Shown: positions 4,651-25,903, counted from the first letter of the stretch. The stretch: DNA of 39,150 nt from a virus (IMGVR_UViG_3300030090_002134:1-39150), one strand, 5' to 3'. The notes: generated from the letters alone by a model not told the origin. Program-made: numbers and translations.

Positions 4651-5282
4651 TGCCAGAAGATAGATTAATAAGAACCTTAATTAACACCAAACAAAGCTCA
4701 TTAGAGTATTCGGGTAAACCCGCTATTAATTCTATGGTAGATGGACAAACCGCAATAGAAAGAAAACCCAATGGACAATTAGCTTTGTATAAAAAAAAGT
4801 TTGGTAAGTTATGGAAATCTTTTATGTCTGACAATGGAGACCAGTATGTTGAAAGAGATTTAAACGTAACTGGAAACCTTACTGTAAATAAAAATTTTTA
4901 CCAAGGTTATAATACTATTAAAATATTTCCTACTGATTTTGTACCTAACGATGATTCTGCAAGACCGCTACAAGTAGTAGATAACGGAGGAAGTATTGTC
5001 GCTAATCACGCAGACCTTGAGGCTTATGCTAGTTATGAAATTCCAAAAGGTCACAACGCTATTTCGTTTTATCTTTATGGTAGCGATACAAATAACGTAG
5101 TAACTGCTTACAAAGCCAATATTGAAAACGCAACGGTTGCTTCGGCTGGAACAGGTACGATTGGAGGAGAAGTTTCTATTAATGTTCCCTCTACTTCAAC
5201 ACAATATTTAGTTATATACTGGGCACCAACTGCTACAGATGATGCCTTGTATGGTGGTTATATAGGCTTAAAAAAACATTAA
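4650..5282 (+). CDS. Virion tail-associated protein
   Basis: 210 residues, ATG overlapping the upstream stop. The first 70 residues (RLIRTLINTKQSSLEYSG, GQTAIERKPNGQLALYKKKFGKLW) are mixed. They lead to 'RDLNVTGNLTVNKNFYQGYN', a 'NVTGNLTV' repeat-like segment typical of phage fibre stalks. The C-terminal 120 residues look beta-rich. This suggests a tail fibre or spike attachment protein, without family recognition. A 40-base gap with a strong ribosome binding site separates it from the next gene. Confidence 0.6.
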   Translation: MPEDRLIRTLINTKQSSLEYSGKPAINSMVDGQTAIERKPNGQLALYKKKFGKLWKSFMSDNGDQYVERDLNVTGNLTVNKNFYQGYNTIKIFPTDFVPNDDSARPLQVVDNGGSIVANHADLEAYASYEIPKGHNAISFYLYGSDTNNVVTAYKANIENATVASAGTGTIGGEVSINVPSTSTQYLVIYWAPTATDDALYGGYIGLKKH

Positions 5283-5322
5283 AAGATATTATGTATAGTT
5301 TAGTATATTTAAAGGAGAAATT

Positions 5323-6333
5323 ATGAACACATTACTAGGACACGCACTTAAACCAACGCCTTATGCAAATGGTGGAAGAGTTTCTCCAGCAATGGCTGCC
5401 CTAAGAAGATTAAAGAGTAGACGAGAAGCTGCAAATTACGCACAACAACAACTTGATGCCGCAAATAAAAAAGCGGGTAAGTCTACTTTTCTTGGTTCAC
5501 TTGGAGGATTAGCTGGTGGATTAGGTATTCCAGCTTTAGCTGGTGCTTTAGGTTTTACTCCAGTAGGTTTACCTTTAGCTATATTAGCGGGTTTAGGAAC
5601 TGCGGGTGGTGCTTATTTAGGAAAGAAAAAAGGTTACGGTAAAGACGTTGATATTGATGAAGATATGAGATATGGGGGTAGCGAGTTTCTTGGAGAGGGC
5701 GGTCTTGATAGACAGGTAACAGCACAAGATGCGTTTACTGGTGCATTTGGTAAAGATTCTTTAATATCTGGTGTAAAGGCTGGATTAACAGCCGGGTTAG
5801 ATAAAACTGGTGGTATTTATGGAAGTGCTGGAAAGTTTGGGCAAAAATTAACTGGAGCTGGTCTTCCAACCGCAACAACAGCTATTGCGTCTAGCACTCC
5901 TTTATTAAATGAGGCTAATCAAGATATTGTAAACAGAGCATTAAGGTCTGATGCTTTTCAAGCTCCTACAGATGTTACTACGTTTGCAGATTCTGGGGCT
6001 GTTATTCCTCAAGTTAATCCTGTTGATATGGCAAGAGAATTTGTTCCAGAAACTGAACAAGTTTTTCAAAGCACATTACCAACTTCAACTGCAATAGGAC
6101 AAGAAAACAAAGTTCTTGAAGCGTTAAAGTCTTTACAAAGCTCTAAAAAAAGCCTTGAAAAAAGTGCTGATATTCAAAGCCGATTACTTGATTATTATAA
6201 TTCACAAGAAACAAATATTGACCCTCAACCTGTTATTAGTTTTAAGGATGCTTTTAGCAATGCAAGAAAAAATAATCTGTTAGAATTTTTATATAATAAT
6301 AATTTATACAGCACTCAATTAGGTAATAATTAA
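5323..6333 (+). CDS. Probable internal virion/ejection protein
   Basis: 336 residues, start set by AAAGGAG 6 bases upstream. Residues 50-105 form a Gly/Ala/Leu-rich hydrophobic segment (FLGSLGGLAGGLGIPALAGA and on), as expected of a protein that inserts into the host envelope. The N-terminal 'PYANGGRV' motif resembles the YxxGG-type motif in the neighbouring gene and in the gene at 29157. The C-terminus is helical. Its place before three other internal-protein genes suggests an ejection protein. No enzyme motif is visible. Confidence 0.55.
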   Translation: MNTLLGHALKPTPYANGGRVSPAMAALRRLKSRREAANYAQQQLDAANKKAGKSTFLGSLGGLAGGLGIPALAGALGFTPVGLPLAILAGLGTAGGAYLGKKKGYGKDVDIDEDMRYGGSEFLGEGGLDRQVTAQDAFTGAFGKDSLISGVKAGLTAGLDKTGGIYGSAGKFGQKLTGAGLPTATTAIASSTPLLNEANQDIVNRALRSDAFQAPTDVTTFADSGAVIPQVNPVDMAREFVPETEQVFQSTLPTSTAIGQENKVLEALKSLQSSKKSLEKSADIQSRLLDYYNSQETNIDPQPVISFKDAFSNARKNNLLEFLYNNNLYSTQLGNN

Positions 6334-6334
6334 A

Positions 6335-7057
6335 ATGCCAAATTTATTAGATTTAGTTTTAAAAAAATATGAACACGGAGGCTATCACGCTGATAACAGT
6401 ATAGACTTTGACCCATTTTCATATACGACACAAGCAGATACATTAAGTGATTTAGGAATAGAAATAACAAGCGATGATGCTCTTGCAGAAATATCTACTT
6501 TTGACCCAATGGCTCAAAACTTAGCTATTGAGGGTTATAATTTAAGGCAAGAGGGTTTTAAACAAGCAAATGAAACAGCACAGAGACAAGGTGCTCAATC
6601 TTTACAAGATTTAACTATACCATCTACAAGTGCTGGTGCTTCTGGATTTGGCGGTATGGGAGATTCTTTAAGTCAAATGACAAATATAAGAAAAGCTTTA
6701 ACTCGTGATTTTGCAGATACTCAAAGAGGAATAGATTTAAGCAGAGACCAATCTTACTTAGACTTACAACAAGATGTTTATAATATTAATCAAGCCTATC
6801 AAGATAGATTAGCACAAGATATATCTCAATTAGATGAGTCTGATTATAGATATACGTCTAGTGCAAGAATTGAGTATGACGATAGCACCGCTAACCAACC
6901 TTCTTTTACTGGTTACCTAGGACAAGAAGCAAAAGGTCAAGATGGAAGAACTTATATTTGGAGAGATTTTGGTGGTTATGGAGAATGGGAACTTGCTGAA
7001 TATATGGAAGAAGAATATACTCCAGAACCAAGCGAAGAAAATGAAGGGGATATTTAA
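6335..7057 (+). CDS. Probable internal virion protein, Gln/Asp-rich
   Basis: 240 residues starting one base after the previous stop. The N-terminus 'LVLKKYEHGGYH' carries the YxxGG-type motif. The middle is a helical region rich in Gln, Asp and Ser (QDISQLDESDYRYTS). The C-terminus is very acidic (EYTPEPSEENEGDI). It overlaps the next start as TAATG. No family is recognised. The role is inferred from position. Confidence 0.5.
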   Translation: MPNLLDLVLKKYEHGGYHADNSIDFDPFSYTTQADTLSDLGIEITSDDALAEISTFDPMAQNLAIEGYNLRQEGFKQANETAQRQGAQSLQDLTIPSTSAGASGFGGMGDSLSQMTNIRKALTRDFADTQRGIDLSRDQSYLDLQQDVYNINQAYQDRLAQDISQLDESDYRYTSSARIEYDDSTANQPSFTGYLGQEAKGQDGRTYIWRDFGGYGEWELAEYMEEEYTPEPSEENEGDI

Positions 7058-8931
7058 TGGCAAACGGAAGAGTAAAAAGTATATTAGATTCTGGTTATGA
7101 TACAACCCTCGCTGATTTTTTAGATAAAATACCCCAGTATGTTTTACAACAGCAACAGTTAAATGATGCTAAAGAAGAACGTGCAAAAGACAGACAGTTT
7201 CAACAAACTCAATATCGAAACCAATTAGAACAACAAAGAAAAAATAATGAGTTTAGGCAATCTCAAGCTGATTATACAAAAGAACAAAACAATCTAAACA
7301 TGACTTTAAAAACCATTGAGAGTCTTCCGTTTGGACAACAATATTTAGCTTTTCAAAATTTAGTAACTAACAGTACTGACTTTCCCAATTCTGACCTTTC
7401 TGCAATTCAACAAATGTACAAGAATAACCATGAAGGGTATCAAAAATATAAAGAAATAGACGATGATTATGATAAAGTAAATATGATGTCAACACTTGAC
7501 AAGTTTAGAAATTATACTGAGATGGAACAAACAAGTAAGGGTTTAAAAAATTTATCAAGCTCAATATCTAATCCTCAATTAAAAAAAGAAATAGATGCTA
7601 AGAACGAATTGATTAATAAAGAAATTAAATTTTTAAAACTTAATGCTGGTAAAAATTATCCAGACGACCAAATACCAGATAATTTAAAAAATGAACTTAA
7701 TTATTTAAGAACTAATAGACAAAATTTTTTTAACGACAGAAGAAATAATCAAAATAAACTTGAACAATTTGGCACGTATAATGCAGAACAAGACACTTAT
7801 GTTATGAAACCGTTTCCTGTTACATTAGGAGAAGTGTCAAAAGAAACACAAGAACTTATGGACAATGTTTCAGCTTCAATAAGTGGACTTGACTTAGGAA
7901 AAGACTCAAGACTAAGCCCAGAAGATAAATGGAAAATGACTTTTACTCAACTTAATGATAGGTATAAAGCAGACACAGCTCAATTAAATGGAGCTAATAG
8001 AGTTTTAAATTCTTTTTATAGAAGAAATAATCTTGTATACCCAGAGTTAAATGCAGATAAAATGGGCACATTAGAAGACCCAAAAGAAATTAGAAGTGCT
8101 GGGGATGATACAAGCGTATCTGACCCTAGTGCGTATTTAGAATTGTCTCCACAGGGGTTTCCAGAAAGACCAGTTATTGAAGACGAAGATTTAGCTGTTG
8201 TTAATAGAAATCCAGAATTAGCTGAACAATTTTTAAGACAAATTGAAACTGGTGAAGAAAAAGACGCTAAGGCTTTTAAAGATAACTTAGACATACAAAA
8301 TAATTATGCTGATATAATAAGTCAGTTTAATGAATTAGATAACAATATAAATCAAGATGCTTTAATCGGTGCGGGTACAGAAGAAATAGCTGTAGACGAT
8401 AGAGAAAGAGAGGTTATTGTAGATGAAGAATTTAATCCAGCTAATGATTTTGTTGAAGATGAAGAAGTAACAACCGCTCCTGTTGCATTAAGCCCAGTAA
8501 GTGCCGGTACTCGTTCAGATATGGAGGGAGTAGTTCCAAGTCAATCTGAAAAAATTAGCACAGATGCTTTATTTGCAGAACCAATTACATCAGACTCTTT
8601 AAATCAATTAAATCTTAAAGATGAAAAAGGTAATCAAATTGATTTTAATTCATCTGCAAGAAAAATTGATAATCAATTAAATTCTATGTATAAAAAAATT
8701 GACAATATTAGTAAACAAATAAGACAGGCTGGTTCTTCAAGAGAAGAAAAAAAGTTAATGGAGTCCAATGCTAAAGAAATTATTAATAATTTATTTAGTG
8801 CCCTAGAAGCGTCTAAAATGGAAGCTAATACTGTAAAAGAAAAAAACATTAAGTCTACAGTATCAAACTTTTTAAAAAATAAAAACACTTCTGTTGATAG
8901 GTTAAAAAAATATTACAACAATTTATTTTAA
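7057..8931 (+). CDS. Large coiled-coil internal virion protein
   Basis: 624 residues, ATG overlapping the previous stop. Residues about 28-80 are Gln/Asn/Arg-rich and helical (NDAKEERAKDRQFQQTQYRN). Long helical polar stretches follow, then an acidic segment at about 440-480. The C-terminus is lysine-rich and helical. No signal peptide or catalytic motif is visible. Large polar helical proteins in this place in podoviruses are commonly ejected with the DNA (T7 gp15-like role), which is inference here. Confidence 0.6.
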   Translation: MANGRVKSILDSGYDTTLADFLDKIPQYVLQQQQLNDAKEERAKDRQFQQTQYRNQLEQQRKNNEFRQSQADYTKEQNNLNMTLKTIESLPFGQQYLAFQNLVTNSTDFPNSDLSAIQQMYKNNHEGYQKYKEIDDDYDKVNMMSTLDKFRNYTEMEQTSKGLKNLSSSISNPQLKKEIDAKNELINKEIKFLKLNAGKNYPDDQIPDNLKNELNYLRTNRQNFFNDRRNNQNKLEQFGTYNAEQDTYVMKPFPVTLGEVSKETQELMDNVSASISGLDLGKDSRLSPEDKWKMTFTQLNDRYKADTAQLNGANRVLNSFYRRNNLVYPELNADKMGTLEDPKEIRSAGDDTSVSDPSAYLELSPQGFPERPVIEDEDLAVVNRNPELAEQFLRQIETGEEKDAKAFKDNLDIQNNYADIISQFNELDNNINQDALIGAGTEEIAVDDREREVIVDEEFNPANDFVEDEEVTTAPVALSPVSAGTRSDMEGVVPSQSEKISTDALFAEPITSDSLNQLNLKDEKGNQIDFNSSARKIDNQLNSMYKKIDNISKQIRQAGSSREEKKLMESNAKEIINNLFSALEASKMEANTVKEKNIKSTVSNFLKNKNTSVDRLKKYYNNLF

Positions 8932-8937
8932 AAAATA

Positions 8938-11900
8938 ATGCCAGAAGAATATGATATATATGGTGCTTATAACGAGCAACTAGATAACGCTGTTGCAAAT
9001 CAAGATAGATACCAAGACCCTTACAGACAAGATGCTCTTCAATATTATAGCGACAAAACAAGTGGTCAATTTGAAACAATAGACAAAACAGAGCAATACG
9101 AACCTCAAGCTAAAGAAGAGCTTACTAATACATTAAAAACTTCTAAAAAAGATAAAGACCTTTATGGTTTTATACCGGGAGATTGGCTTCCTAATTGGGT
9201 AAAACAAGGTTACAATAATAGTATTGAGGGATTAACTTATAATATTGCAAAAGGTGAAAGTTTTTATGACCTAGGAGAGTATGCAAAAAACCCGGAAGAT
9301 ATACCAATTCTTGAAGACATTGGTTCTACTTTAATTTCTTTTATTACTCCTACCGATATAGCAGCATTAACTGCTGGTGGAGGTCTTGGAGGGTTAGCTT
9401 ATAAGCAAGGATTAAAAACCGCAGTAGGTAAAATTATTAAAGACGGTATAAGAGACAAAGTTGCTAAGTCCGCTATTAAGGAATCTGTTGAACAGGCGGT
9501 TGGAAAAAATGGTTTAAAAGCTACTCAAATTTTAATGAAAAATGGCGTAAGTAAACCTATTGCAGAAAAAGTTATTCAAACTTCTATGAAACGTGTTAAT
9601 AACCAAGTATTAGAAAGTGGCTTTATGGGGGGTTCAACACTTGGTTTTTACGGAGGTCTTCAATCTGCTCTTGGTCAAAAAGTGTCTACTGGGGATATAA
9701 GCCTAACACAAACATTAGCAGATGCAAGTAAAAGCTTTTTATTGGGTAGTGTAACTGCCAGTAGTGGCAAGGCATTGAACAATAAATTAATTAGTTCTTT
9801 AGGTAAACCAGAAACAGCCACGCAAAAACTTGCTTACAATGTTGCTGGTAAGGCACTAGAAACTGCTCAGTTTGGAACATTAGCCCCCGCATTAGAAGGA
9901 GAAATGCCTACTGCAAAAGACTATGTCCATGCAGCCGGAACTATTGGAGGGCTTTGGGTACAAAAAGGCATTACAAGAAAAGCAAAAGAGTTGTCTGGTT
10001 TTGACAATCCATACGTTACAGCAAAAGAATATTCTAATATATATGGTAAGAAAAAATTTGATTTAGAAAGTCAATCAGATATTTGGGTAAACAGTAAGGG
10101 TCAAGAAATTACCAATGTAAAATTTAAAAAGAAAAAAAATGAGGAAGGAGTTGAGTCTTCTTATGTTGAGGGAAATTTAAAAAAGAAAGACGGTAGTGTT
10201 TCTGAAACGCAAACTACTATAGAGGGCGATGTTTTTATTAAAGAAAAATACGCAAGGTCTACAAAGAGAAGAGATTTAGATAGCGTAAAGAAACTTGAAA
10301 ATGTAAGACGACAAGAAGTATTTGGTAGAAAAAAGAAATTAAAAATGTCAGACAAAAAATTTAGAGATTTAGTATCTGGCATTACAGGAAAAACAATAGA
10401 CCCTAAAAAAAATAAAACTGGGTATAGTACTCTTTCAAAAATTGAACAAATTAAATTTTTAGATGTAATGAGAAAAGAATCTTTAACAAAAAAGATTTTT
10501 ACAGAATTTAAAAAAGAAGGAACTAGCGAGTTTATGATTCCTAAAAGAAGAATAAGCGAAGCCCTTACATTTGATTTATTAAAACAAGCTAAAAACAGAG
10601 TAAGAACTAAAATTGGGCAAGAAACCGTCAATGATATTAACGCTTCTGATGCAAGAGGGGTTGCATTAACTGGAACTTATTTACAGCAACTTACAGACGT
10701 TGGATTATTTAAAGGAGGTATTTTTAATAAAGTTTTTGGATTAAACAAAATTAAAACTAATAAAGGTCTTATAACTATAAGAAGTGAAACACAAGCCAAA
10801 GCTTATGCCGAAGACTTAGGAAGAAGACTAGCTGACCCAAAAGCAAGAGAACACGCTGATGTTAAAAAAACAAGAAAGATTTTAGATAAAATATTTAGAG
10901 ATGCAAAAAAAGCTGGAGTTCCAGTAGCGGGTTTTAGAAAAGATTACTTTCCCAACCATATTAAACAAAAATACTTAGAAACTATGGGTCAAGATATTTA
11001 TAAAATGGATGCCATAGATGTTAAAATAACAGGTCAAAAGCTTTCAGAAAGTAAAGACTCTGTAAGAAGAGTTAATGAAATAGTAAATGGGAAAACAATT
11101 GTTAGTATAAAAAACACAACAAAACAAGCTTTAGAACATATAAGAGATGGATATTTAAAACAAGCTGAAACAAAAGGGGAATCTCTAACAAAAGAACAGG
11201 CATTAGCTAAAGCTTGGAATCAATTAAGAAATGATATTTATGGACAAACTTATACTACGGTTGGAAATTTAGAAAAATCTAGGAAAATAGAATTACCAGA
11301 TTTTATGTATGAAAGAGATGCTAGAATTGTCCTTGCCAAATACGCAACAGATGTTGCAAAAAGAATTGCTTATGTAGAAAAATTTGGTGCTAAAGGTGAA
11401 ATAATGGACACTAAATTAAAAACATTAAAATCTTTAGGCGACTCAGCAGATAACGCAAAAACTAAAAATTTACTTTATCAAGAAAAAGCTTTATTAGAGC
11501 AAATGTTTAGTTCTCATACTGGTTTAATAGAAGTTGACCCAACTAAAAATTGGGGAAATGCAAGAGCAAGAGAAGCTTTAAAAAACATTGTTGATTTTCA
11601 AGTAGGAACTAAAATTGGTCTTGGTTATGCAACCGTACCTAATATAACCCAAACATTAATATCTACAGCAGTAAAAGCGGGTTATTGGAACACGTTAAAA
11701 GGAACTCATAAATTAGTTTTTGATAAAAATTTTAGAAGAGAAGTCCAAAAATCTGGTATAAGTACACTATCTGTTTTTCAAATGGTTTCTGGATTAGAAC
11801 CATCTAGCTCTATGATGGGTAAATTTGCAAACTTTACAACTAAGATTAGTGGATTTCAAGCAATGAACAAAGCTAATCAATATATATCAGCGGCAGCTGG

Positions 11901-12918
11901 TAAATTATATGTTGAAGGCTTAATAAAAACTAGCCAAGGAAAAGACTTAATAGGTAGAACAGGTTTATCTTTTAATTCTAGAAAAAATTGGGCAAATAAA
12001 AACCTACAAGAATTAGGAATTGCTAGAGGAACAAAAAAACTAACCGACCAACAAATGCTTGAAACAATGTACAGGTTTTCAAGAGACGCACAGCTACAAA
12101 GGAATGTTTTAAACGACCCATTATTTTTTAATGACCCAAGATTTAGACCTTTTATTTTATTTAAAAGATTTGGATATAAACAGTTTAATTGGGTTAGAGA
12201 AAACGTTGGTAAAGACTTTACTAGGGGAAACGCATTACCTCTTTTAAGATTAGGTGTTGGTGGTGCTTTAGGAGCACAATTTATAGTATGGTCTAAAAAA
12301 GCTTTAAATAATTATCTATCAGATGAAATAGTGTACGATGAAAACAGATTGTTTATACCGGGTTTACCAGAGCAAACTATAATTCGAGAAGGCATTGTTA
12401 ATACAGATATGTCTAAATATACTTGGTCAGATTTTCTTGACCACGTAGCCTCTGTTGGTGCAATGGGTTTTGTAGCCGATATAGCTGCATCAGAAAGCAA
12501 ATTAAGAGCACTTGAGTTTTTAGTAAAACCAGCAATCTATCAAGATACAATGAAAATTGTAGACGCTTTTACAAGAATGTATAAAGATTTAAATGATTTT
12601 GGTGTCGGTGCTTATGCAAGAGCACCTAAGTATATTGCTCCTATATTTGGTACTGTTCCTAGAAGACTTGCAAAGCAACTTGAAACACCGGGTCAACGTG
12701 AGACATACCAAAGATATAGAAAGGGTATTATTAAAGGTAGAATTTTAGATGCTTTAATTAATGGACAGCCAAAAGAGGCTGGAAAACTTATCAATGCTTG
12801 GAACTCATCTAATCAAGACAAGCCTATGACAGATACAGATATAAGTATAAATGCTGTGTACGATAGACTTAGAAAAAAATATGAAAAACGATTAAGAGAA
12901 ACAGGATTGAAGTTATAA
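8938..12918 (+). CDS. Giant (1326-residue) internal virion protein, polyvalent-protein-like
   Basis: 1326 residues, the largest gene, starting 6 bases after the previous stop with no clear ribosome binding site. An amphipathic Gly/Ala/Lys-rich region lies at about 137-300. A middle region has a 'YFPNHIKQKYLE' segment, then a region with 'DFMYERDARIVLAKYATDVAKR' split by short gaps, and a later region 'DPRFRPFILFKRFGYKQFNW'. The last two resemble segments of large polyvalent proteins carried in phage heads and of related mobile elements, from memory. I see no lysozyme or transglycosylase motif. It probably enters the host with the DNA. It ends the left plus-strand block and faces the minus-strand early operon. 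Confidence 0.6.
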   Translation: MPEEYDIYGAYNEQLDNAVANQDRYQDPYRQDALQYYSDKTSGQFETIDKTEQYEPQAKEELTNTLKTSKKDKDLYGFIPGDWLPNWVKQGYNNSIEGLTYNIAKGESFYDLGEYAKNPEDIPILEDIGSTLISFITPTDIAALTAGGGLGGLAYKQGLKTAVGKIIKDGIRDKVAKSAIKESVEQAVGKNGLKATQILMKNGVSKPIAEKVIQTSMKRVNNQVLESGFMGGSTLGFYGGLQSALGQKVSTGDISLTQTLADASKSFLLGSVTASSGKALNNKLISSLGKPETATQKLAYNVAGKALETAQFGTLAPALEGEMPTAKDYVHAAGTIGGLWVQKGITRKAKELSGFDNPYVTAKEYSNIYGKKKFDLESQSDIWVNSKGQEITNVKFKKKKNEEGVESSYVEGNLKKKDGSVSETQTTIEGDVFIKEKYARSTKRRDLDSVKKLENVRRQEVFGRKKKLKMSDKKFRDLVSGITGKTIDPKKNKTGYSTLSKIEQIKFLDVMRKESLTKKIFTEFKKEGTSEFMIPKRRISEALTFDLLKQAKNRVRTKIGQETVNDINASDARGVALTGTYLQQLTDVGLFKGGIFNKVFGLNKIKTNKGLITIRSETQAKAYAEDLGRRLADPKAREHADVKKTRKILDKIFRDAKKAGVPVAGFRKDYFPNHIKQKYLETMGQDIYKMDAIDVKITGQKLSESKDSVRRVNEIVNGKTIVSIKNTTKQALEHIRDGYLKQAETKGESLTKEQALAKAWNQLRNDIYGQTYTTVGNLEKSRKIELPDFMYERDARIVLAKYATDVAKRIAYVEKFGAKGEIMDTKLKTLKSLGDSADNAKTKNLLYQEKALLEQMFSSHTGLIEVDPTKNWGNARAREALKNIVDFQVGTKIGLGYATVPNITQTLISTAVKAGYWNTLKGTHKLVFDKNFRREVQKSGISTLSVFQMVSGLEPSSSMMGKFANFTTKISGFQAMNKANQYISAAAGKLYVEGLIKTSQGKDLIGRTGLSFNSRKNWANKNLQELGIARGTKKLTDQQMLETMYRFSRDAQLQRNVLNDPLFFNDPRFRPFILFKRFGYKQFNWVRENVGKDFTRGNALPLLRLGVGGALGAQFIVWSKKALNNYLSDEIVYDENRLFIPGLPEQTIIREGIVNTDMSKYTWSDFLDHVASVGAMGFVADIAASESKLRALEFLVKPAIYQDTMKIVDAFTRMYKDLNDFGVGAYARAPKYIAPIFGTVPRRLAKQLETPGQRETYQRYRKGIIKGRILDALINGQPKEAGKLINAWNSSNQDKPMTDTDISINAVYDRLRKKYEKRLRETGLKL

Positions 12919-18873: not shown

Positions 18874-19497
18874 TTATTTCTCCATTTTAGATATGGTGTC
18901 ACTTATATACGTAGCAATTTCTTCAACACTTAAACTTACGTGCTTTAATTGGTCTATCAAATCAGATTTATCTAAATCTCTATTTACACCTTCTGTATAA
19001 GCGTATATTTGAGTGACTTTTGATTTTATGTTTTTTAATATTTTATTATAATCACGAAATCTATGTCCATCTTCTATTTCAATTGCTTTTTCAATTTCAT
19101 CATCAGAAAGACTAACAGGTTTTTCAATTTCCCAAACACCTGTTTCAATTGGAGTAGATGTCGCACTACTTATTGAAGAACCGTCTCCAATAACGTAAAG
19201 CATAGCGTCTTCGGAAAGATGTTCACTAATTACATCTGCCCAAGAAACCATTTTACGAATAAATAAACCACTACGAACACCTTCAACCATATCCAATGTT
19301 TCCAAGATAATGTCATCAACTTTATACAACTCGCCATAAAAAGAATGTCCTTCACTTTCACAAACCATAGGATAACCAAACCCTGTGTCGTACATTCTAT
19401 ATCCATCTACTTCTACATCTTCTATATATTTAGCACCTTCCATATATCCATGAAACCTTCCATGTTTTTTAAGTGTGCCATACACGATTACATACAT
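18874..19497 (-). CDS. AIG2/gamma-glutamyl-cyclotransferase-like protein
   Basis: 207 residues from ATG at 19497, with GGAGGAAG upstream. The N-terminus 'VIVYGTLKKHGRFHGYMEG' is the hallmark of the AIG2/GGCT fold (YGTL then small residues). GFGYP (39-43) and YGELYKV (54-60, E56 likely catalytic) complete the pattern. The known family cleaves or transfers gamma-glutamyl groups with formation of 5-oxoproline. A C-terminal region of about 90 residues is extra and helical. As I recall, enzymes of this fold occur beside amidoligases in predicted peptide-modification systems, and this phage has an amidoligase operon too. Confidence 0.7.
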   Translation of the reverse strand: MYVIVYGTLKKHGRFHGYMEGAKYIEDVEVDGYRMYDTGFGYPMVCESEGHSFYGELYKVDDIILETLDMVEGVRSGLFIRKMVSWADVISEHLSEDAMLYVIGDGSSISSATSTPIETGVWEIEKPVSLSDDEIEKAIEIEDGHRFRDYNKILKNIKSKVTQIYAYTEGVNRDLDKSDLIDQLKHVSLSVEEIATYISDTISKMEK

Positions 19498-20000
19498 ACT
19501 TCCTCCATTTTCTTTTTAAATATCTTAGGTATTTTTCTACCTTTCCATTCTGTTTTATTGTTTAATTTTTCTGCAATATAATACTTTCTATAAGATTGTA
19601 CTGCATCATACTTACCACCTACCTTTGTTTTATACTCTACAGGCATTGCTAATGCAAAATTACTTTTCTGTTTTACTTTATCAATATTCAGTTTTACTGC
19701 ATTATAATAACACCACTTGATAACATCTAAAGACTTGTGAGTTTTGCCGTACCTGTATGTATACTCGTTTGATAAGGCAAAGCCGTGTTGTATTAACCAC
19801 ATAAAATTAGCCATAGATTCTCTTGTCCAAACACTACAAGGGTGATTATAATGTGTACGCCTGTATGGTACATCAAACTTATCTCTGTCAAATACAGAAC
19901 ACAACATTTGTGCTGATTCTAATATCATTTTAACTACGTGCTTATTGTGTTGTAGTTGTGCTGATTTTACAGGAGAATCATCTAATACAAATATATTCAT
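19488..20000 (-). CDS. Conserved 'MNIFVLD' phage protein, pyrimidine-dimer-glycosylase-like
   Basis: 170 residues. The opening MNIFVLDDSPVKSAQ, 'NKHVVKMILESAQML' and 'NHPCSVWTRESMANFMWLI' match a family common in T4-like and marine phages, which I remember as sometimes annotated in the endonuclease V/pyrimidine-dimer glycosylase group. The 'YRYGKTHKS' segment also fits. The function is unproven here. It overlaps the upstream gene as ATGA. A DNA-repair role would fit the surrounding nucleases. Confidence 0.5.
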   Translation of the reverse strand: MNIFVLDDSPVKSAQLQHNKHVVKMILESAQMLCSVFDRDKFDVPYRRTHYNHPCSVWTRESMANFMWLIQHGFALSNEYTYRYGKTHKSLDVIKWCYYNAVKLNIDKVKQKSNFALAMPVEYKTKVGGKYDAVQSYRKYYIAEKLNNKTEWKGRKIPKIFKKKMEEVCM

Positions 20001-20302
20001 TGTTTATTCTCTTTTGTTTTACGTTCCCACTTTTTAATCCACTTTCTAATTTGCTTTATTTCATCACGACATTCTTGTTTTTGTTTTGTAGTTCCTTCTT
20101 TTAACTGTTCATTTCTTACATGACCATCTTCATAATAAGTTGCTAGAACATACTTGGCATCACTAATTAAAAGTTTAGGCATTTCTTTTTTATAGTCGTA
20201 ATAATCATAGCCATTTGATTCTATTATGCACGTACAAGCATATTCTAGTTCTCCGATTTCCCACATCTCATCTCGCATTTTATAATACGTTGTTTCGTTC
20301 AT
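19997..20302 (-). CDS. Small acidic-basic phage protein
   Basis: 101 residues from ATG at 20302, with GGAG 6 bases upstream. Helical with an aromatic and acidic middle (NGYDYYDYKKEM) and a very basic C-terminus (KWIKKWERKTKENKQ). No family is recognised. A promoter-like pair lies just upstream, so it may start a secondary transcription unit. Confidence 0.55.
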   Translation of the reverse strand: MNETTYYKMRDEMWEIGELEYACTCIIESNGYDYYDYKKEMPKLLISDAKYVLATYYEDGHVRNEQLKEGTTKQKQECRDEIKQIRKWIKKWERKTKENKQ

Positions 20303-20331
20303 ACTCACTCCATTTACACTTTGTTATATAT

Positions 20332-20362
20332 GTTATACGTGCAATTACTTAAAAAGTTCCAA
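20332..20362 (-). promoter_or_regulatory. Promoter-like TTGGAA-19-TATAAC pair
   Basis: On the minus strand TTGGAA (20362-20357) is followed after exactly 19 bases by TATAAC (20337-20332). The same layout occurs at 22624-22594. It lies in the only sizeable gap before the gene at 19997-20302. Confidence 0.5.
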
Positions 20363-20367
20363 ACTAA

Positions 20368-20931
20368 TTATCCCCATTGGTTTGCCATTGCATCTGCTAT
20401 CCCTTGAAATGTTCTACTTCTTGCAATAGAATTTCGGGGGGTTTTATACCAACCCTTTGTATACCTATATCCGTTTTTTGTTGTAATGTACGTTATCTCA
20501 ACTACTTTAGTTGGTTCTAGTTTAGGTAAACCCTTTAACCATAAACACGTTTTTTTAGAATGGTCGTGTCCGTGATGATAGGGTTGTATTATTTGGTCAT
20601 ACTTAGGCAATCCAGCTTGTTTACTTGGAACAGGATTTTCAATACATATCTTAGGTATATCTGCATTAAGTAAACCCATAAATAAACTTGTGTCTATTTC
20701 TTTCTTTTCTATCTTGTTTAGCCTTGCCCTGTTCCTACATATATACGTACATACAGGATGACCTATCATTAAATCCCACCCCTTATCTAAGTGGTTCATT
20801 ACATCATCTTGAATGTGGTATTTACTTGGTATTTCCGTTTCCATTAAATCACAACTCCAAGCCTCGTGACCTTTCTTATTAAAAGCCTCACGAATTATAC
20901 CACTCATCTCACACGCTATCAGTACTTTCAT
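20368..20931 (-). CDS. DNA cytosine-methyltransferase-like protein
   Basis: 187 residues from ATG at 20931, with AAGGAG upstream. The start 'KVLIACEMSGIIREAFNKKG' is motif I-like, with a 'SCDLM' motif II. 'GHPVCTYI' occupies the place of motif IV: the catalytic Cys (C61) is kept but the usual PPC is PVC. 'IENP' (97-100) fits motif VI (usual ENP/ENV). This matches phage C5-cytosine MTase-like proteins, which are shorter than cellular enzymes (about 300-400 residues) and lack an obvious target-recognition domain. It may modify phage DNA against host restriction or may be a fossil. Start overlaps the previous gene. Confidence 0.65.
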   Translation of the reverse strand: MKVLIACEMSGIIREAFNKKGHEAWSCDLMETEIPSKYHIQDDVMNHLDKGWDLMIGHPVCTYICRNRARLNKIEKKEIDTSLFMGLLNADIPKICIENPVPSKQAGLPKYDQIIQPYHHGHDHSKKTCLWLKGLPKLEPTKVVEITYITTKNGYRYTKGWYKTPRNSIARSRTFQGIADAMANQWG

Positions 20932-21124
20932 CTTTTTTATACTCCTTCATATATACATTTCTTAGAGCATTTAACAATAAGACCTTCTCATTGTTATTCA
21001 TTTTGCTCCACGCTTTCGCACCTACTACTTTAAATTGCTCACGTAACACTCTACCAACACCCATAAATGCTTGAGCCATTCTATAACTATAATCTTGCCT
21101 ATCTTTATAATCTTGTCTGTCCAT
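20909..21124 (-). CDS. Small unidentified protein
   Basis: 71 residues, start fixed by GAGGT 6 bases upstream. Sequence is helical and basic/polar (MAQAFMGVGRVLREQFKVVG). It overlaps the next gene by 23 bases. No family is recognised. Confidence 0.55.
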   Translation of the reverse strand: MDRQDYKDRQDYSYRMAQAFMGVGRVLREQFKVVGAKAWSKMNNNEKVLLLNALRNVYMKEYKKDESTDSV

Positions 21125-21125
21125 A

Positions 21126-21527
21126 TTATACCTCTAGGGGGGATTTAAGAAAGTCCTCGTAGAAATTAATACCCTTCACTTGATTATTTTTAGGTTGATT
21201 TACTGCAATGGACATAACATATTTATCATTAGGTCTGTTATTTTTAAACCATAGTACGTAGGTTTTATTTCCAACCTTATGAGGTGTTGCAATCCAATCT
21301 GCTTTGCATTTATTTAAGTGAATTTGAATAGATGCTTGAGTTTTACTTACGTTCATTGAAGTATGATATTTGACATTAATTGTAATTTTTTTACCCTTAC
21401 TAATTACCAACAGGTCTATGGTCTTGTCATCTACGACAGGCTCATAAACCTGTATATCCTTATAGTTTTCTAATAGGTTTTGTATAACAATTAATTGTCC
21501 TATATACCCCTTACGAGTAGTATTCAT
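21126..21527 (-). CDS. PD-(D/E)XK-like endonuclease
   Basis: 133 residues. 'TRKGYIGQLIVIQNLLENY', 'VYEPVVDDKTIDLLVISKG' and 'KKITINVKYHTS' match restriction-type nucleases (D38, then NVK with K53). The usual N-terminal Glu and the acidic residue of (D/E)xK are replaced by Q11 and N51, so activity may be reduced. It overlaps the end of the acidic zinc protein gene. It probably acts on DNA. Confidence 0.55.
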   Translation of the reverse strand: MNTTRKGYIGQLIVIQNLLENYKDIQVYEPVVDDKTIDLLVISKGKKITINVKYHTSMNVSKTQASIQIHLNKCKADWIATPHKVGNKTYVLWFKNNRPNDKYVMSIAVNQPKNNQVKGINFYEDFLKSPLEV

Positions 21528-21693
21528 CTTCTATTGAGAATTCTACGTGTTCTCTGTAAGCTTGTTCCTCTTCTTGCCTACGTTCTTCTGCAAATAATTC
21601 TTCGTCTTCATCTACACAACTATAACACAGATTTTGGTCTAAATCAAATTCTGTTTCATCATAATCACTTTCACAGGTTAAACAAGTCCACAT
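21511..21693 (-). CDS. Acidic zinc-ribbon protein
   Basis: 60 residues, with GGAGGT 6 bases before the ATG. A CLTC pair and a CYSC pair form a zinc ribbon in the first half. The rest is extremely acidic (DEDEELFAEERRQEEEQ). This could be a DNA-mimic or host-inhibitor type protein. It is the first gene after the terminator at 21756-21841. No function is assigned. Confidence 0.55.
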   Translation of the reverse strand: MWTCLTCESDYDETEFDLDQNLCYSCVDEDEELFAEERRQEEEQAYREHVEFSIEDEYYS

Positions 21694-21724
21694 AATGTAC
21701 CTCCGTATTTTATTTTACTTACTT

Positions 21725-21755
21725 ACTTTACTCACTTAAATTTAAAAAGTTCCAA
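21725..21755 (-). promoter_or_regulatory. Weaker copy of the promoter-like pair
   Basis: TTGGAA (21755-21750) is followed after 19 bases by TAAAGT (21730-21725) on the minus strand, 32 bases before the acidic zinc-ribbon gene. The second hexamer matches the -10 type poorly. It directly follows a terminator, which supports a new transcript start. Confidence 0.4.
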
Positions 21756-21841
21756 AAAAAATAATAAGGGCGAAAGTTTTAAGAGTTAATAATATTACCA
21801 AACGTGTTATTAGTTAGTGAATCTCTTTACTAATTTCGCCC
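21756..21841 (-). terminator. Long hairpin terminator
   Basis: On the minus strand GGGCGAAA (21841-21834) pairs perfectly with TTTCGCCC (21775-21768). Between them AAGAG/CTCTT pairings add to a nested structure of about 74 bases. A run TTATTATTTTTTTT follows. It separates the gene at 21852 from the next unit. It could also be an attenuator. Confidence 0.6.
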
Positions 21842-21851
21842 CTAGTTTTGT

Positions 21852-22010
21852 TTATTCGCTAGTTAATTCAATACCATATACATTAGCTACTTTTTTTAAA
21901 AGTATTTCCGTGTAGTGTCTTTTATCACTAGTCATTTCTAAAGTATATCCACTAGTCCACAAATAATTTATAGCATCCATACATTCTTTTTTAGTTACTT
22001 TGTTTTTCAT
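21852..22010 (-). CDS. 52-residue unidentified protein
   Basis: ATG at 22010 has AGGTAGG just upstream. The peptide begins MKNKVTKKECMDAINYLW and ends ANVYGIELTSE. It is helical and polar. It lies between the gene at 22031 and the terminator. No family is recognised. Confidence 0.55.
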   Translation of the reverse strand: MKNKVTKKECMDAINYLWTSGYTLEMTSDKRHYTEILLKKVANVYGIELTSE

Positions 22011-22030
22011 TATTTACCTACCTTTTTTAT

Positions 22031-22258
22031 TTAATATTTAATTAATTTTAAAATTCTTGCAACTTCGCTATATCTACTCATTAGATTTAAATCATAAACT
22101 CGATTTATTAAAATATCATTAATAGAATCTTTTGTATAAATAGAAATCTTATTTAGATAATATTTTTCAATTTTATTTTGAGATGGATTACTTTCTAAAA
22201 ATTTAATCAATTTATGTATTTCTCTGCTCAATCTTATATTTCTCAAGTTTTTTTTCAT
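22031..22258 (-). CDS. Small basic helical protein
   Basis: 75 residues, starting 3 bases after the upstream stop, with a GGGGGTAGG ribosome binding site in the gap. Arg/Lys-rich N-terminus (KKNLRNIRLSREIHKLI). A DNA-binding role is possible. No clear helix-turn-helix is seen. Confidence 0.5.
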   Translation of the reverse strand: MKKNLRNIRLSREIHKLIKFLESNPSQNKIEKYYLNKISIYTKDSINDILINRVYDLNLMSRYSEVARILKLIKY

Positions 22259-22261
22259 TAC

Positions 22262-22552
22262 CTACCCCCTTATAATTTTATTTAATTCATTAGTGGTTTT
22301 CATATGAAAAGAATTTTTAATAAATAAATTAGGTCTTAACTGTGTTTGTTGTTTGCTAGTTGAAACGCTATATTTATCTTTATTTTCGTACCATGTTTGG
22401 GTACTTGCTTTATATACATACATTGGAAAGTGCCTTCCGTAAGAATACACTACGTACTTACCTTCATGCCACTCTGCAAACGTGTTTGAACCTTTGAATT
22501 CGTTTTTGTCTGTTGTGTATTCAGAACCGTTTTTATTTGCTATTTTTACCAT
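22262..22552 (-). CDS. Conserved phage 'YVVYSYGRHFP' protein (DUF8033-like)
   Basis: 96 residues, first gene of the operon, with GGAG upstream. The pattern 'KYVVYSYGRHFPMYVY', 'WYENKDKYSVSTSKQQTQLRP' matches a family seen in many phages, which I remember as DUF8033. The function is unknown. A promoter-like pair lies about 42 bases upstream, so it is probably the first early gene transcribed. Confidence 0.65.
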   Translation of the reverse strand: MVKIANKNGSEYTTDKNEFKGSNTFAEWHEGKYVVYSYGRHFPMYVYKASTQTWYENKDKYSVSTSKQQTQLRPNLFIKNSFHMKTTNELNKIIRG

Positions 22553-22593
22553 GTTATCACTCCGTTTTTTATTAATTAAATACTTGTTAATAT

Positions 22594-22624
22594 GTTATAC
22601 AATAGTACCCCCAAAATGTTCCAA
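22594..22624 (-). promoter_or_regulatory. Leading early promoter-like pair
   Basis: TTGGAA (22624-22619) then 19 bases then TATAAC (22599-22594) on the minus strand. The spacer contains TACTATTG, also found in the plus-strand pair at 25677. It precedes the whole left early operon. Confidence 0.55.
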
Positions 22625-22675
22625 AATAGTAAAACTTTTTTTTATTAGTGGGTAAATTAGTGGGGATAGTAAACT

Positions 22676-22757
22676 CATAGTATTATAATAGTATTGTAAT
22701 AGTACTATAGTAGTTTTAAAAGTTTAGTATAGTATTGTAGTATCATAGTATAGTTAA
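22676..22757. repeat. AT-rich TAGTAT-type repeat tract
   Basis: Short variants of TAGTATT and ATAGTA recur many times. A tract with the complementary ACTATT word occurs at 25716-25846 near the late promoters. Together they bracket the amidoligase operon in inverted sense. Possibly unwinding or promoter elements. Confidence 0.4.
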
Positions 22758-22810
22758 CGCATGAAATAAAAGAAAGTTCCCTACTATTTTAAATAAATTA
22801 TAAAAAAGTA

Positions 22811-23003
22811 CCTACGTGCATACTATTTTTAATAAAATTAATTACTTACGTGCATAAATAAATACTTACGTGCATATTTTATACCTACGTGCATAAATTT
22901 TTACTACTTACTTGAATATTTTTTTCATTTCTCTAATCATAGAGTTTTTAAAACTCGAATCTCTATTTATCTATTTTTTGCTTACCTACTTACCTACGTG
23001 CAT
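22811..23003. repeat. Five iteron-like repeats (YTACGTGCAT)
   Basis: Five near-identical 11-mers start at 22811, 22845, 22865, 22884 and 22993 ((C/T)TTACGTGCAT or CCTACGTGCAT). The middle three are spaced about 20 bases apart, two helical turns. They lie in AT-rich non-coding DNA, as in replication origins or repressor arrays. No protein partner is known. Confidence 0.6.
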
Positions 23004-23009
23004 ATTTTA

Positions 23010-23041
23010 AAAAATAAAAAAAATTTATCATTTTTGATAAA
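23010..23041 (-). terminator. AT-rich terminator after the structured RNA candidate
   Basis: On the minus strand a 7-bp stem (23041-23035 with 23030-23024, loop of 4) is followed by a long T-rich run. A smaller GTAAC hairpin (23043-23056) lies just before it. The stem is all-AT apart from one G-C pair, so it may be weak. Confidence 0.4.
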
Positions 23042-23072
23042 AGTAACATTTGTTACGTTAATAGGAAATTAT

Positions 23073-23190
23073 GAAGCGGGTGAAGGCTTAACAATTTTTA
23101 CGGCTGCATCCAGTTTTAATGCTGCATAGCCAGATAGGCTTTTCCTTCCAGTCACCTACCCCGCTCAGAGTGCTCTGTGAGAGAGCTACC
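23073..23190 (-). ncRNA. G+C-rich structured RNA candidate
   Basis: A clear G+C-rich island within AT-rich non-coding DNA. AGCGGG (23075-23080) pairs with CCCGCT (23160-23165), and GAAGG (23082-23086 region) with CCTTC (23144-23148). Inside, GGCTGCAT (23102-23109) pairs with ATGC and AGCC (23119-23130). A second hairpin (CAGAG/CTCTG, 23166-23176) flanks it. The minus direction is inferred from the U-rich stop at 23010. No known RNA family fits by eye (checked against tRNA, tmRNA, RNase P, common riboswitches and ribozymes from memory). Confidence 0.5.
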
Positions 23191-23222
23191 TACGTATTTT
23201 GCTATATTTTAAGCTAATTTTA

Positions 23223-23300
23223 CTATACATAATCTAGTTTTCTGTGTTATGTATAGTTCATTTTAATTATACATAATATCTAAATTTGTGTTATGTATAG
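23223..23300. repeat. Two tandem copies of an inverted repeat
   Basis: Copy 1 is CTATACATAA (23223-23232) and TTATGTATAG (23247-23256), a perfect 10-base inverted repeat with 14 bases between. Copy 2 is TTATACATAA (23267-23276) and TTATGTATAG (23291-23300), with one mismatch. The copies are 44 bases apart. They may be operators or hairpins ahead of the structured RNA. Confidence 0.55.
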
Positions 23301-23312
23301 TTATTTTTAGGC

Positions 23313-23346
23313 AAAAAAAAAGGGGAAATCCGTTAAGACTTCCCCT
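23313..23346 (-). terminator. Rho-independent terminator of the amidoligase operon
   Basis: On the minus strand AGGGGAA (23346-23340) pairs perfectly with TTCCCCT (23327-23321) and is followed by about nine T. It lies 18 bases past the stop of the amidotransferase gene. A textbook terminator. Confidence 0.85.
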
Positions 23347-23364
23347 ATTTTATTACACTACTTA

Positions 23365-24111
23365 CTAAATACTGTAATGCTCGTTATCACAAGTTGAGCA
23401 CATTCCAGTATTTTGCTCATATAATGTTGACAAATTAGCTTTACATTGTTTACAACTATATCTAATAACTCCACCTAGATATTTTTTCTTTTTCTTCTTC
23501 TTTGGCTTTGTGGGAGAGTGGAGACCGTGACCACCCCAATAATAACTCCCATAATTATAATGAATTGTACATGACTCAAAGGTTTCATTAGAATACCATA
23601 TCCCATTATCCCAAAGACCTTTATGTTCATTACACATTGTATAATTGCCATCATTATCTAAGAAAGCTAGTTTACTGTTACTGCTTATCGCTTCCTCAAT
23701 TAATGCTATTACACCTTGATTACTCAAAAAATCCTTTGGTAATAGTTTTAAGACCGTATCATTAAACATTGATGTATCAGACCTAGTCTTATCATTATCG
23801 ACAAAGTGAATAACTCCATTGTGAGCAAAGCCAAGATTTTGATTAACTTGGAAGGGGTGACAGTTTGATTTATCGGTCAAACCGTGAGTTGTGATTCTGA
23901 AATGCAAGATTGCAGTTGGATTGTCATTCTTAACCATAGCTTGACAATATGAACCCCAAAATTTATCAAAATCAAAAAATCCCTTTCTAATGGTTAATGA
24001 ACCTTTACTAGCGAACATAAAACCCGCCCCATCTGGATTATTTTCAAAACAATTTTGAGCGGTTTTCTTAGATATGAAAACGCCCTTTGGTTTCGTTGCA
24101 ATTATACACAT
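23365..24111 (-). CDS. Class II glutamine amidotransferase with zinc ribbon
   Basis: 248 residues, with GGAGGT upstream. It starts MCII, placing the N-terminal nucleophile Cys at position 2 after Met removal, as in Ntn-type amidotransferases. 'HFRITTHG' (70-77), 'CHPF' (84-87), 'AHNG' (96-99) and 'SDTSMF' complete the class II glutaminase signature. A lysine run is followed by a C-terminal zinc ribbon (CKQC and CSTC). It should release ammonia from glutamine or transfer an amide. It lies 1 base from the amidoligase and should be coexpressed. Glutaminase assignment is strong. The acceptor is unknown. Confidence 0.8.
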   Translation of the reverse strand: MCIIATKPKGVFISKKTAQNCFENNPDGAGFMFASKGSLTIRKGFFDFDKFWGSYCQAMVKNDNPTAILHFRITTHGLTDKSNCHPFQVNQNLGFAHNGVIHFVDNDKTRSDTSMFNDTVLKLLPKDFLSNQGVIALIEEAISSNSKLAFLDNDGNYTMCNEHKGLWDNGIWYSNETFESCTIHYNYGSYYWGGHGLHSPTKPKKKKKKKYLGGVIRYSCKQCKANLSTLYEQNTGMCSTCDNEHYSI

Positions 24112-24112
24112 A

Positions 24113-25297
24113 TTATAATACCTCCAAATTATCAGAATTATACTCTAAATTGACTAAGTTGGTCATATGTTTTTTAGTCATCATGTTTTGAGATTTGGTG
24201 AACATTGGATAGCCTTTCTTGTGAAGAAAAAAACATAAGTTCAAATATGAACTTTGGTGTTTCTTCAAAAATCTAAGATAACTAAGTCTACCTATCTCTG
24301 TTGCGTCTTTCAAGCTTGTCACATCTCCCCAATGTAGCACACTTCTTACAAAATCCATATTTTTTAAAAATGAATTATAATTTAGTGTACCTCTAAAGAG
24401 TCTGAACTCTATTGTGTTTCTAGGGTGTAAGTTGATTGCACTTGACCTATCAAGATACTCTCTTATTTCTCTATAATTACTGTTAGCCATAAATGAAAAT
24501 GGCTTTTTGAAATTATCAAGGAAATACGAACCTAATTTAGGCTTTGCCCATTCATCAAGTGCACTTTCTCGCCTTTGAGAAATATCAAGAATTAATTTGT
24601 AATAATCCTCATTAAAAACCAAAGATAACACCTTATAAAGTGTAGTTGGTTTTATGCTATTTCTTGAGACGTGAACGTGCATACCTGAGTCATTAGCATT
24701 ATGAGAGCGAAATGAATCCTTCCTAAGCATTTTAAATAAGGTCTTAAATACTCTGTGACCGTATTTATTAAAATACTTCCATGTGAAAGGATGAGATACT
24801 ATTTCATTATCACAGGTGCTATCAGATTTAACGTATAATAATTCCTCGTTATTCGTTAAACCTTTACCTAATAAACCTATCATTGATGCAAGTTTATTCC
24901 CGTGTAAGTGGTTATAACCGTCGGTTTCAATCTCAACGCCAAAGTGTCTATATCCTTTGTCTCTCTCAGAAATAATACATTGACCTTTATGAACTCGATG
25001 AAATAAAGAATTAGGTTTTTCACTATATCCTAGAATACACCTAGTATTAGTAATGCAATTCTTACAAACATTGTCATCATTCATACCTAGTCTTTTTCTA
25101 CCACAGGAAACACATCTTTCTAAGTCGTCAAAACAATCATGGCAAATAGGTTGCCTAGTTGAATAGTTCATGTTTAACCCTGTTTCATGGCACCTTTCCT
25201 CACACACAATGCAAATACTTTGTGGAGGTTGGGGATTAATGAACGTTTCAAAGTCACCTTGACTTAGTCTATCCTCTATTGATTTTAATATACTCAT
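24113..25297 (-). CDS. ATP-grasp-type amidoligase with zinc ribbons (Amidoligase_2-like)
   Basis: 394 residues, GAGGT 10 bases upstream of the ATG. Four Cys pairs at the N-terminus (around 29-32, 52-55, 62-65, 78-81) make two zinc ribbons. 'FGVEIETDG' (119-127), 'VKSDST' (156-161), 'SGMHVHVSR' (204-212) and 'NTIEFRLFRGT' (294-304) are the patterns of the Amidoligase_2 family, as I recall. Such enzymes are predicted to use ATP to join a carboxylate to an amine. The peptide or small-molecule substrate is unknown. It is the first gene of a separate operon with its own leader and terminator. Confidence 0.75.
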   Translation of the reverse strand: MSILKSIEDRLSQGDFETFINPQPPQSICIVCEERCHETGLNMNYSTRQPICHDCFDDLERCVSCGRKRLGMNDDNVCKNCITNTRCILGYSEKPNSLFHRVHKGQCIISERDKGYRHFGVEIETDGYNHLHGNKLASMIGLLGKGLTNNEELLYVKSDSTCDNEIVSHPFTWKYFNKYGHRVFKTLFKMLRKDSFRSHNANDSGMHVHVSRNSIKPTTLYKVLSLVFNEDYYKLILDISQRRESALDEWAKPKLGSYFLDNFKKPFSFMANSNYREIREYLDRSSAINLHPRNTIEFRLFRGTLNYNSFLKNMDFVRSVLHWGDVTSLKDATEIGRLSYLRFLKKHQSSYLNLCFFLHKKGYPMFTKSQNMMTKKHMTNLVNLEYNSDNLEVL

Positions 25298-25379
25298 TGG
25301 TTGCTATACCTCTTTATTTGTTAGTTAAAAATATATGTAATTATACTCTCTCGCAGTACGTTGGTCATTGCAAGAGTCT

Positions 25380-25448
25380 GTTTGGAGTTCGGTATTTCGA
25401 GCATAAACCGAATTATTTTAACTACCTCATAAGAGTCACTATCCAAAC
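25380..25448 (-). promoter_or_regulatory. Structured leader ahead of the amidoligase gene
   Basis: GTTTGGA (25380-25386) pairs with TCCAAAC (25442-25448), 7 bp perfect. Inside, TTCGGT (25388-25393) pairs with ACCGAA (25407-25412). Read on the minus strand this is a leader hairpin about 80-150 bases before the amidoligase start. A -10-like TATAAT lies at 25345-25340. A possible -35 (TGACCA) at 25367-25362 would start transcription after the hairpin, so the order of leader and start site is uncertain. Confidence 0.45.
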
Positions 25449-25546
25449 AAGTAAGCCGAATTTTCAAAAATCTAATATCATTAATGTACTCACAAATTAA
25501 TTAACATTCAAGAGGCAAGGCTCAATTATATATGTGTGTATGCAAG

Positions 25547-25604
25547 GGAAATTCTCAACGCCGCCGACGTGAAACCGATTTTTTCAACGTGGAATTTTCA
25601 ACCC
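25547..25604. repeat. Degenerate direct repeats in the divergent control region
   Basis: GGAAATTCTCAACGCC (25547-25562) and GGAATTTTCAACCC (25591-25604) resemble each other, and a third TTTTCAACG (25581-25589) lies between. CCGATT also occurs twice nearby. G+C content rises here. Possible protein-binding or origin element. This 606-base gap (25298-25903) also holds the leader above, promoters and a palindrome, and no gene I can support. Confidence 0.35.
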
Positions 25605-25676
25605 AAATCCGATTAGGGGCGTACTACATACAATAATAAGAAGGACACCCATATTAATATATTTTTTTTAAATTTT

Positions 25677-25707
25677 TTGGAGTTTTTACATTTTACTATT
25701 GTATTAA
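25677..25707 (+). promoter_or_regulatory. Plus-strand copy of the promoter-like pair
   Basis: TTGGAG (25677-25682), 19 bases, then TATTAA (25702-25707). The spacer ends TACTATTG, as in the minus-strand copy at 22594. It lies upstream of the late plus-strand operon. Confidence 0.45.
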
Positions 25708-25734
25708 AACTGTGCGGGTACTATTTTATATAAC

Positions 25735-25752
25735 TATGTTATATATAACATA
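25735..25752. repeat. 18-base perfect palindrome
   Basis: TATGTTATATATAACATA is its own reverse complement. It lies between the two candidate late promoters, so it could be an operator for a dimeric regulator. Confidence 0.5.
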
Positions 25753-25787
25753 TCTAATACTATTATACTATTTTACTATTTTATATA

Positions 25788-25816
25788 TTGACAGATACTA
25801 TATACTATTTTATATA
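25788..25816 (+). promoter_or_regulatory. Sigma-70-like promoter for the late block
   Basis: A perfect TTGACA (25788-25793), a 17-base spacer and TATATA (25811-25816). It points at the gene at 25904 and the terminase genes. Confidence 0.5.
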
Positions 25817-25903
25817 GAATAGTAATACTATGTTACTACGTCAAAACAACTTTATATATGTAAAATCATTTTACATTTGACATAATTTATATTAAATTAG
25901 TCT

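Follow-up and report, generated by a model that had tools for sequence, protein, structure and literature searches.

An amidoligase and glutamine amidotransferase gene pair in a virus genome, with a cyclotransferase-like gene in the neighboring early operon

The window analyzed here is a stretch of 39,150 bases out of the 42,597 of an IMG/VR virus record (IMGVR_UViG_3300030090_002134), and terminase and portal genes are present in it. Three genes had been proposed in an initial annotation of this DNA, namely an amidoligase, a class II glutamine amidotransferase (GATase) and a GGCT/AIG2-like cyclotransferase (GGCT), and all three were confirmed as open reading frames on the minus strand (Table 1). 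The GATase start lies 1 nt past the amidoligase stop codon. The stem and T run behind the GATase (-23.6 kcal/mol, z-score of -5.3 against shuffled sequences) were graded as a strong terminator; together with the 1-nt gap, this upholds the proposed two-gene operon with its own terminator. As was also proposed, the GGCT gene belongs to the operon that follows on this strand, a separate early operon 3.9 kb beyond the pair, past the terminator and a non-coding gap of about 800 nt. The end of a neighboring phrog_624 gene falls within the GGCT gene, at 19488. On the other side of the pair, the amidoligase gene and the terminase-side genes diverge from a non-coding region of about 600 nt (25298-25903), and this position of the pair is kept in the clade. 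The window also contains big genes, of 925, 624 and 1326 aa, at 1873-12918, all of them without a PHROG match. An Rfam search gave no match.

Table 1. Features of the amidoligase-GATase operon and of the GGCT gene, with positions counted from the first base of the window.
Feature	Position	Strand	Basis or description
Amidoligase (Amidoligase_2) gene, first of the operon	24113..25297	-	394 aa; PF12224, phrog_16683, model
Amidoligase GS-like catalytic core, residues 113-364	24206..24961	-	Aligned to YbdK and its Salmonella homologue; key residues invariant
Amidoligase N-terminal zinc ribbons (predicted)	25055..25213	-	Cys pairs 29/32, 52/55, 62/65 and 78/81
Class II glutamine amidotransferase (GATase) gene	23365..24111	-	248 aa; motifs, GlmS profile, fold
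GATase C-terminal Cys4 knuckle (predicted)	23389..23454	-	C220, C223, C238 and C241; preceded by a Lys-rich linker
Intrinsic terminator of the amidoligase-GATase operon	23321..23346	-	11-bp stem and T8 run
GGCT/AIG2-like gene	18874..19497	-	207 aa; PF06094, phrog_2520, E. coli YtfP
GGCT C-terminal extension, residues 124-207	18877..19128	-	84 aa; outside the Pfam match

The amidoligase exceeded the PF12224 cut-off of 22 bits (37.6 bits, 2.8e-9) and matched phrog_16683 (1e-26). Its structural model (mean pLDDT 80) gave Z-scores of 10.5 with E. coli YbdK and the Salmonella homologue, 10.2 with plant glutamate-cysteine ligase, 10.0 and lower with glutamine synthetases, 9.7 with Dop and 9.3 with PafA, and a glutamine-synthetase/YbdK/PafA fold is predicted on this basis. 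Motifs of the ExE, HxH and ExR types were located in the core (E122xE124, E165, H207xH209, R242 and E297xR299), and residues G120, E122, E124, D159, E165, H207, H209, R242, E297 and R299 were invariant in 48 relatives.

Taken as a single sequence, the GATase scored just under the Pfam cut-offs (24.3 against 27 bits for PF13522 and 19.8 against 23 bits for PF13230). It was here that the check by profiles and structures suggested in the initial annotation fell short; the amidoligase and the GGCT passed, and the folds of both members of the pair matched. The GATase family profile matched the glutaminase domain of GlmS (1xff, E-value 7.5e-11) and also PurF, with no EgtC chain among its matches. 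The model (pLDDT 82) aligned over residues 2-187, with Z-scores of 14.8 for GlmS over 172 residues, 14.4 for EgtC and 13.2 for PurF, and a GlmS/EgtC-type glutaminase fold is predicted. Since both the family profile and the fold match, the family assignment stands despite the Pfam scores below the cut-offs, and with PF12224 and PF06094 above theirs all three initial assignments held. In the GATase relatives M1-C2, H70, R72, H85, P86, N98, G99 and D112 were invariant and T75 was conserved in at least 90%, and the protein could be aligned to the GlmS motifs HTRWATHG and HNG. The full NCBIfam models were not reached: EgtC (TIGR03442) gave 15.3 bits against a cut-off of 218.65, and glmS gave 22.2 bits against 418, GlmS having an additional sugar isomerase domain whereas the GATase is only 248 aa long.

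Predicted cysteine elements lie outside the catalytic domain of each protein. All eight ribbon cysteines of the amidoligase were invariant in its eight-member clade and seven of the eight were conserved in at least 90% of the 48 relatives, with at least two CxxC motifs before the core in 83 of 90 amidoligases. The GATase knuckle was invariant in eight close relatives, and 58 of 84 partner GATases had at least two CxxC motifs past the GATase domain. Zinc ribbons commonly bind nucleic acid; lysines in a row make up the GATase linker, and genes of DNA metabolism are found in the early region. These features would suit ribbons that grip DNA or RNA, with an amide-linked mark that shields the phage DNA or alters host RNA or tRNA. 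We consider such a role improbable: the amidoligase ribbon profile matches LIM domains, which are chiefly protein-binding, and no nucleotide hydroxylase, kinase, 7-deazaguanine or like base-modification gene was recognized among the proteins scanned.

To follow the pair in other viruses, 80 viral loci were collected by scanning viral contigs with the amidoligase alignment alone; this alignment was needed, as scans with the single amidoligase or GATase protein recovered only one near-identical phage. A GATase on the same strand was present in 76 of the 80 loci, nearly always directly downstream. Two of the remaining loci (L021 and L066) end at a contig edge, and the other two (L081 and L091) cluster with the C. 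difficile phage L008. The distance from the amidoligase stop to the GATase start was between -40 and +30 nt in 64 of 77 measurable cases, as expected if the subunits are translationally coupled. Half of the loci come from a single clade, which makes a count by lineage the one that matters; when the amidoligases were clustered at 50% identity, 19 of the 20 clusters had the pair, with a bias in four that had been retrieved by way of the GATase. The pair is near-obligate. Conserved third genes beside it were confined to clusters other than that of the phage of the window. A scan of genome contigs with a closer amidoligase alignment found no relative.

The window was also compared with a near twin (L003). 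DNA identity was about 97-98% in the flanks and about 94% over roughly 22,950-25,450, a block that spans the two-gene unit and its terminator and contains few protein changes. The dS values of amidoligase and GATase were 0.40 and 0.28, those of the neighboring genes 0.03-0.15; dN was 0.011 and 0.012 for the pair, and dN/dS about 0.03-0.04. Synonymous change exceeded non-synonymous change in all three genes against the close relative, markedly so in the pair, and purifying selection on the amidoligase and GATase is strong. One possible reading of the block is that the two-gene segment has been exchanged by recombination. In more distant clade members, terminase and portal were about 84% and 85-86% identical, as against 36-42% for the amidoligase and 45-50% for the GATase. 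A claim of coevolution was considered and dropped, the protein distances being correlated overall (0.69) yet not among 18 divergent representatives (Spearman 0.04).

The GGCT passed the PF06094 cut-off of 22.8 bits (64.9 bits, 1.3e-17; residues 3-123 covered) and also matched phrog_2520 and E. coli YtfP (5.9e-7). Judged by eye from the sequence, the Glu of its LDMVEG motif, a candidate catalytic residue, is placed as in the LDALEG of relatives in which the cyclotransferase is fused to a GATase. PF06094 was detected in 7 of 50 pair-bearing records and in none of 32 control viral contigs (Fisher p 0.026); the controls were shorter, and at an equal rate per base zero matches would have a probability of 0.11, so that the enrichment is weak. 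In the clade of the window, GGCT was present in all three members with enough sequence (the window, L003 and L016), the others having too little downstream sequence. The initial annotation had counted phages with the pair and without the cyclotransferase against the trio, and such phages were the majority, although none was seen in this clade. In the relative L016, a separate short ORF (9838-10044) just 3' of its GGCT matches part of the 207-aa ORF of the window. GGCT and YbdK-type enzymes act on cellular gamma-glutamyl amino acids, and the set might accordingly recycle host gamma-glutamyl compounds or glutathione and so feed phage synthesis. This appears very unlikely, as ribbons on both partners would be unusual among small-molecule enzymes and the pair mostly occurs without GGCT.

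The best evidence that all three enzymes belong to one pathway comes from proteins in which GATase and GGCT are fused. Such a protein was found in the annotated phages C75C1 and ctfjg026 and in 13 further viral loci, 15 in all, and an amidoligase was detected upstream in 12 of them. These fusions, with the amidoligase upstream, support a functional link between the three enzymes, and they narrow the chemistry to amide or gamma-glutamyl handling. The proposal that the trio forms one system is thus supported as regards shared function, while as a fixed unit it fails, with GGCT in only 7 of the 50 records. Fusion proteins lie at 5001-5897 in locus L013 and 5001-6218 in locus L014, and others are encoded in L154-L166. 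No published report of the fusion was found in a literature search that did not include Iyer et al. (2009) itself.

We give about even weight to the reading that amidoligase and GATase are the two subunits of one glutamine-dependent amidoligase, acting most likely on a peptide of the cell envelope or on a carboxylate of a host protein. The N-terminal Cys2 of the GATase would cleave the gamma-amide of glutamine, as its fold and invariant residues suggest; the ammonia would pass to the partner amidoligase, in which the GS-like site, with ATP, would activate a carboxylate and convert it to an amide. The zinc ribbons of both partners may bind the complex together or grip a macromolecular substrate, and the envelope peptide or host protein would be modified during infection. 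GGCT would be an accessory that takes off gamma-glutamyl groups as 5-oxoproline. Several lines of evidence argue for two subunits: a GS/GCL/PafA fold beside a GlmS-type glutaminase fold with invariant catalytic motifs, the close spacing and the recurrence of the pair across loci and clusters, purifying selection on both genes in a unit that has diverged from its flanks as one block, and the GATase-GGCT fusions with their upstream amidoligases. Against it, GS-fold ligases can take free ammonia or amines without a glutaminase, partner distances were uncorrelated among the 18 divergent representatives (Spearman 0.04), no substrate gene for the pair was found, and EgtC, a gamma-glutamyl bond hydrolase that supplies no ammonia, ties with GlmS in the structural comparison (Z 14.4 against 14.8).

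The tie with EgtC also bears on a close rival, in which the amidoligase gamma-glutamylates an amine or peptide, an EgtC-like GATase removes the gamma-glutamyl group, and GGCT, where present, is a second remover. Gamma-glutamyl ligation is the activity of YbdK, PafA and gamma-glutamylmethylamide synthetase, and the top structural matches of the amidoligase are the gamma-glutamyl ligases YbdK and plant GCL, together with PafA and Dop. Turnover of gamma-glutamyl groups accounts for the fusions no less well than a supply of ammonia does, and earlier authors assigned GATase and GGCT to the degrading side (PMC5498523). We hold this alternative possible but somewhat unlikely, since GlmS and PurF, but no EgtC chain, are among the matches of the GATase sequence profile, most pair-bearing records are without GGCT, and a ligase kept in fixed ratio with its reverse enzyme by one coupled operon would tend toward ATP cycling. 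Together, the products of the pair probably form amide bonds with nitrogen or glutamyl groups from glutamine, and the GGCT gene, apart from them, is for an enzyme that cleaves such bonds.

Sets of this kind, noted in phages since about 2009, are already described in phiEco32, LUZ24, RIO-1, Marvin and OM43 phages, and that of the window is apparently a reduced form. The gene-neighborhood prediction mentioned in the initial annotation is borne out by papers citing Iyer et al. (2009). According to PMC5498523 and PMC3890496, through which Iyer (2009) and Hardies (2013) are cited, the peptide-modification cassette of phiEco32, LUZ24 and RIO-1 comprises Amidoligase_2, class II GATase and AIG2/GGCT in the early region. 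The same three genes lie in one early region of the window, with GGCT as a separate transcription unit. That cassette also carries a COOH-NH2 ligase and/or ATP-grasp ligases; a PF14395 search of the record of the window gave no match, the control genomes being equally silent, and no ATP-grasp ligase matched among the window proteins scanned, a subset of the ORFs. UFV-P2 has an HNH gene between amidoligase and GATase, unlike the window. In the OM43 phages MEP401 and MEP402, mycobacteriophage Marvin and Manatee Spring phage ctgrD200, an amidoligase is followed by an adjacent GATase on the same strand, as in the window; their amidoligases are 20-24% identical to that of the window, the MEP402 GATase is 46% identical, and GGCT is absent within the fetched flanks. 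The fusion phages (C75C1, ctfjg026 and L154-L166) share the three enzyme families, with the amidoligase upstream where detected, although their GATase and GGCT form one protein. EgtC, which acts in ergothioneine synthesis, shares the class II GATase fold, while the window GATase lies far under the EgtC model cut-off.

A working likeness, with no claim of homology, is offered by MurT-GatD. MurT has a Mur-ligase fold and GatD belongs to another GATase class, unlike the pair described here. MurT-GatD is the Gram-positive lipid II amidating complex, a two-gene ligase and glutamine amidotransferase, and the term "zinc ribbon" occurs in the paper concerned (PMC6113224). A bolder and rather unlikely proposal is that amidoligase and GATase, each with its zinc ribbons, assemble into a dedicated phage complex by which one particular host macromolecule is amidated or tagged with glutamyl during infection, as by a viral counterpart of MurT-GatD or PafA; GGCT, in some phages part of the GATase protein, would then be the eraser. 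For relatives, a published guess is cell-wall modification against superinfection by other phages. Of the aims suggested initially, a modification of virion peptides gained no support, and neither did the defeat of a host defense, a PADLOC run having returned nothing meaningful. The papers covered here report no activity, substrate or experiment for phage amidoligase/GATase sets. The minimal, translationally coupled two-gene form is compact and can be directly expressed and assayed; if the target is the host surface or a protein carboxylate, the phage would be altering its host covalently, in a way that mass spectrometry could read.

Finally, five exact copies of the repeat TAC(C/T)TACGTGCATA lie at 22809-23004, in the non-coding DNA that separates the GATase terminator from the early operon. 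No copy occurs elsewhere in the window and none is expected in shuffled sequences, while the relative L003 has six; the repeats are iteron-like or operator-like.
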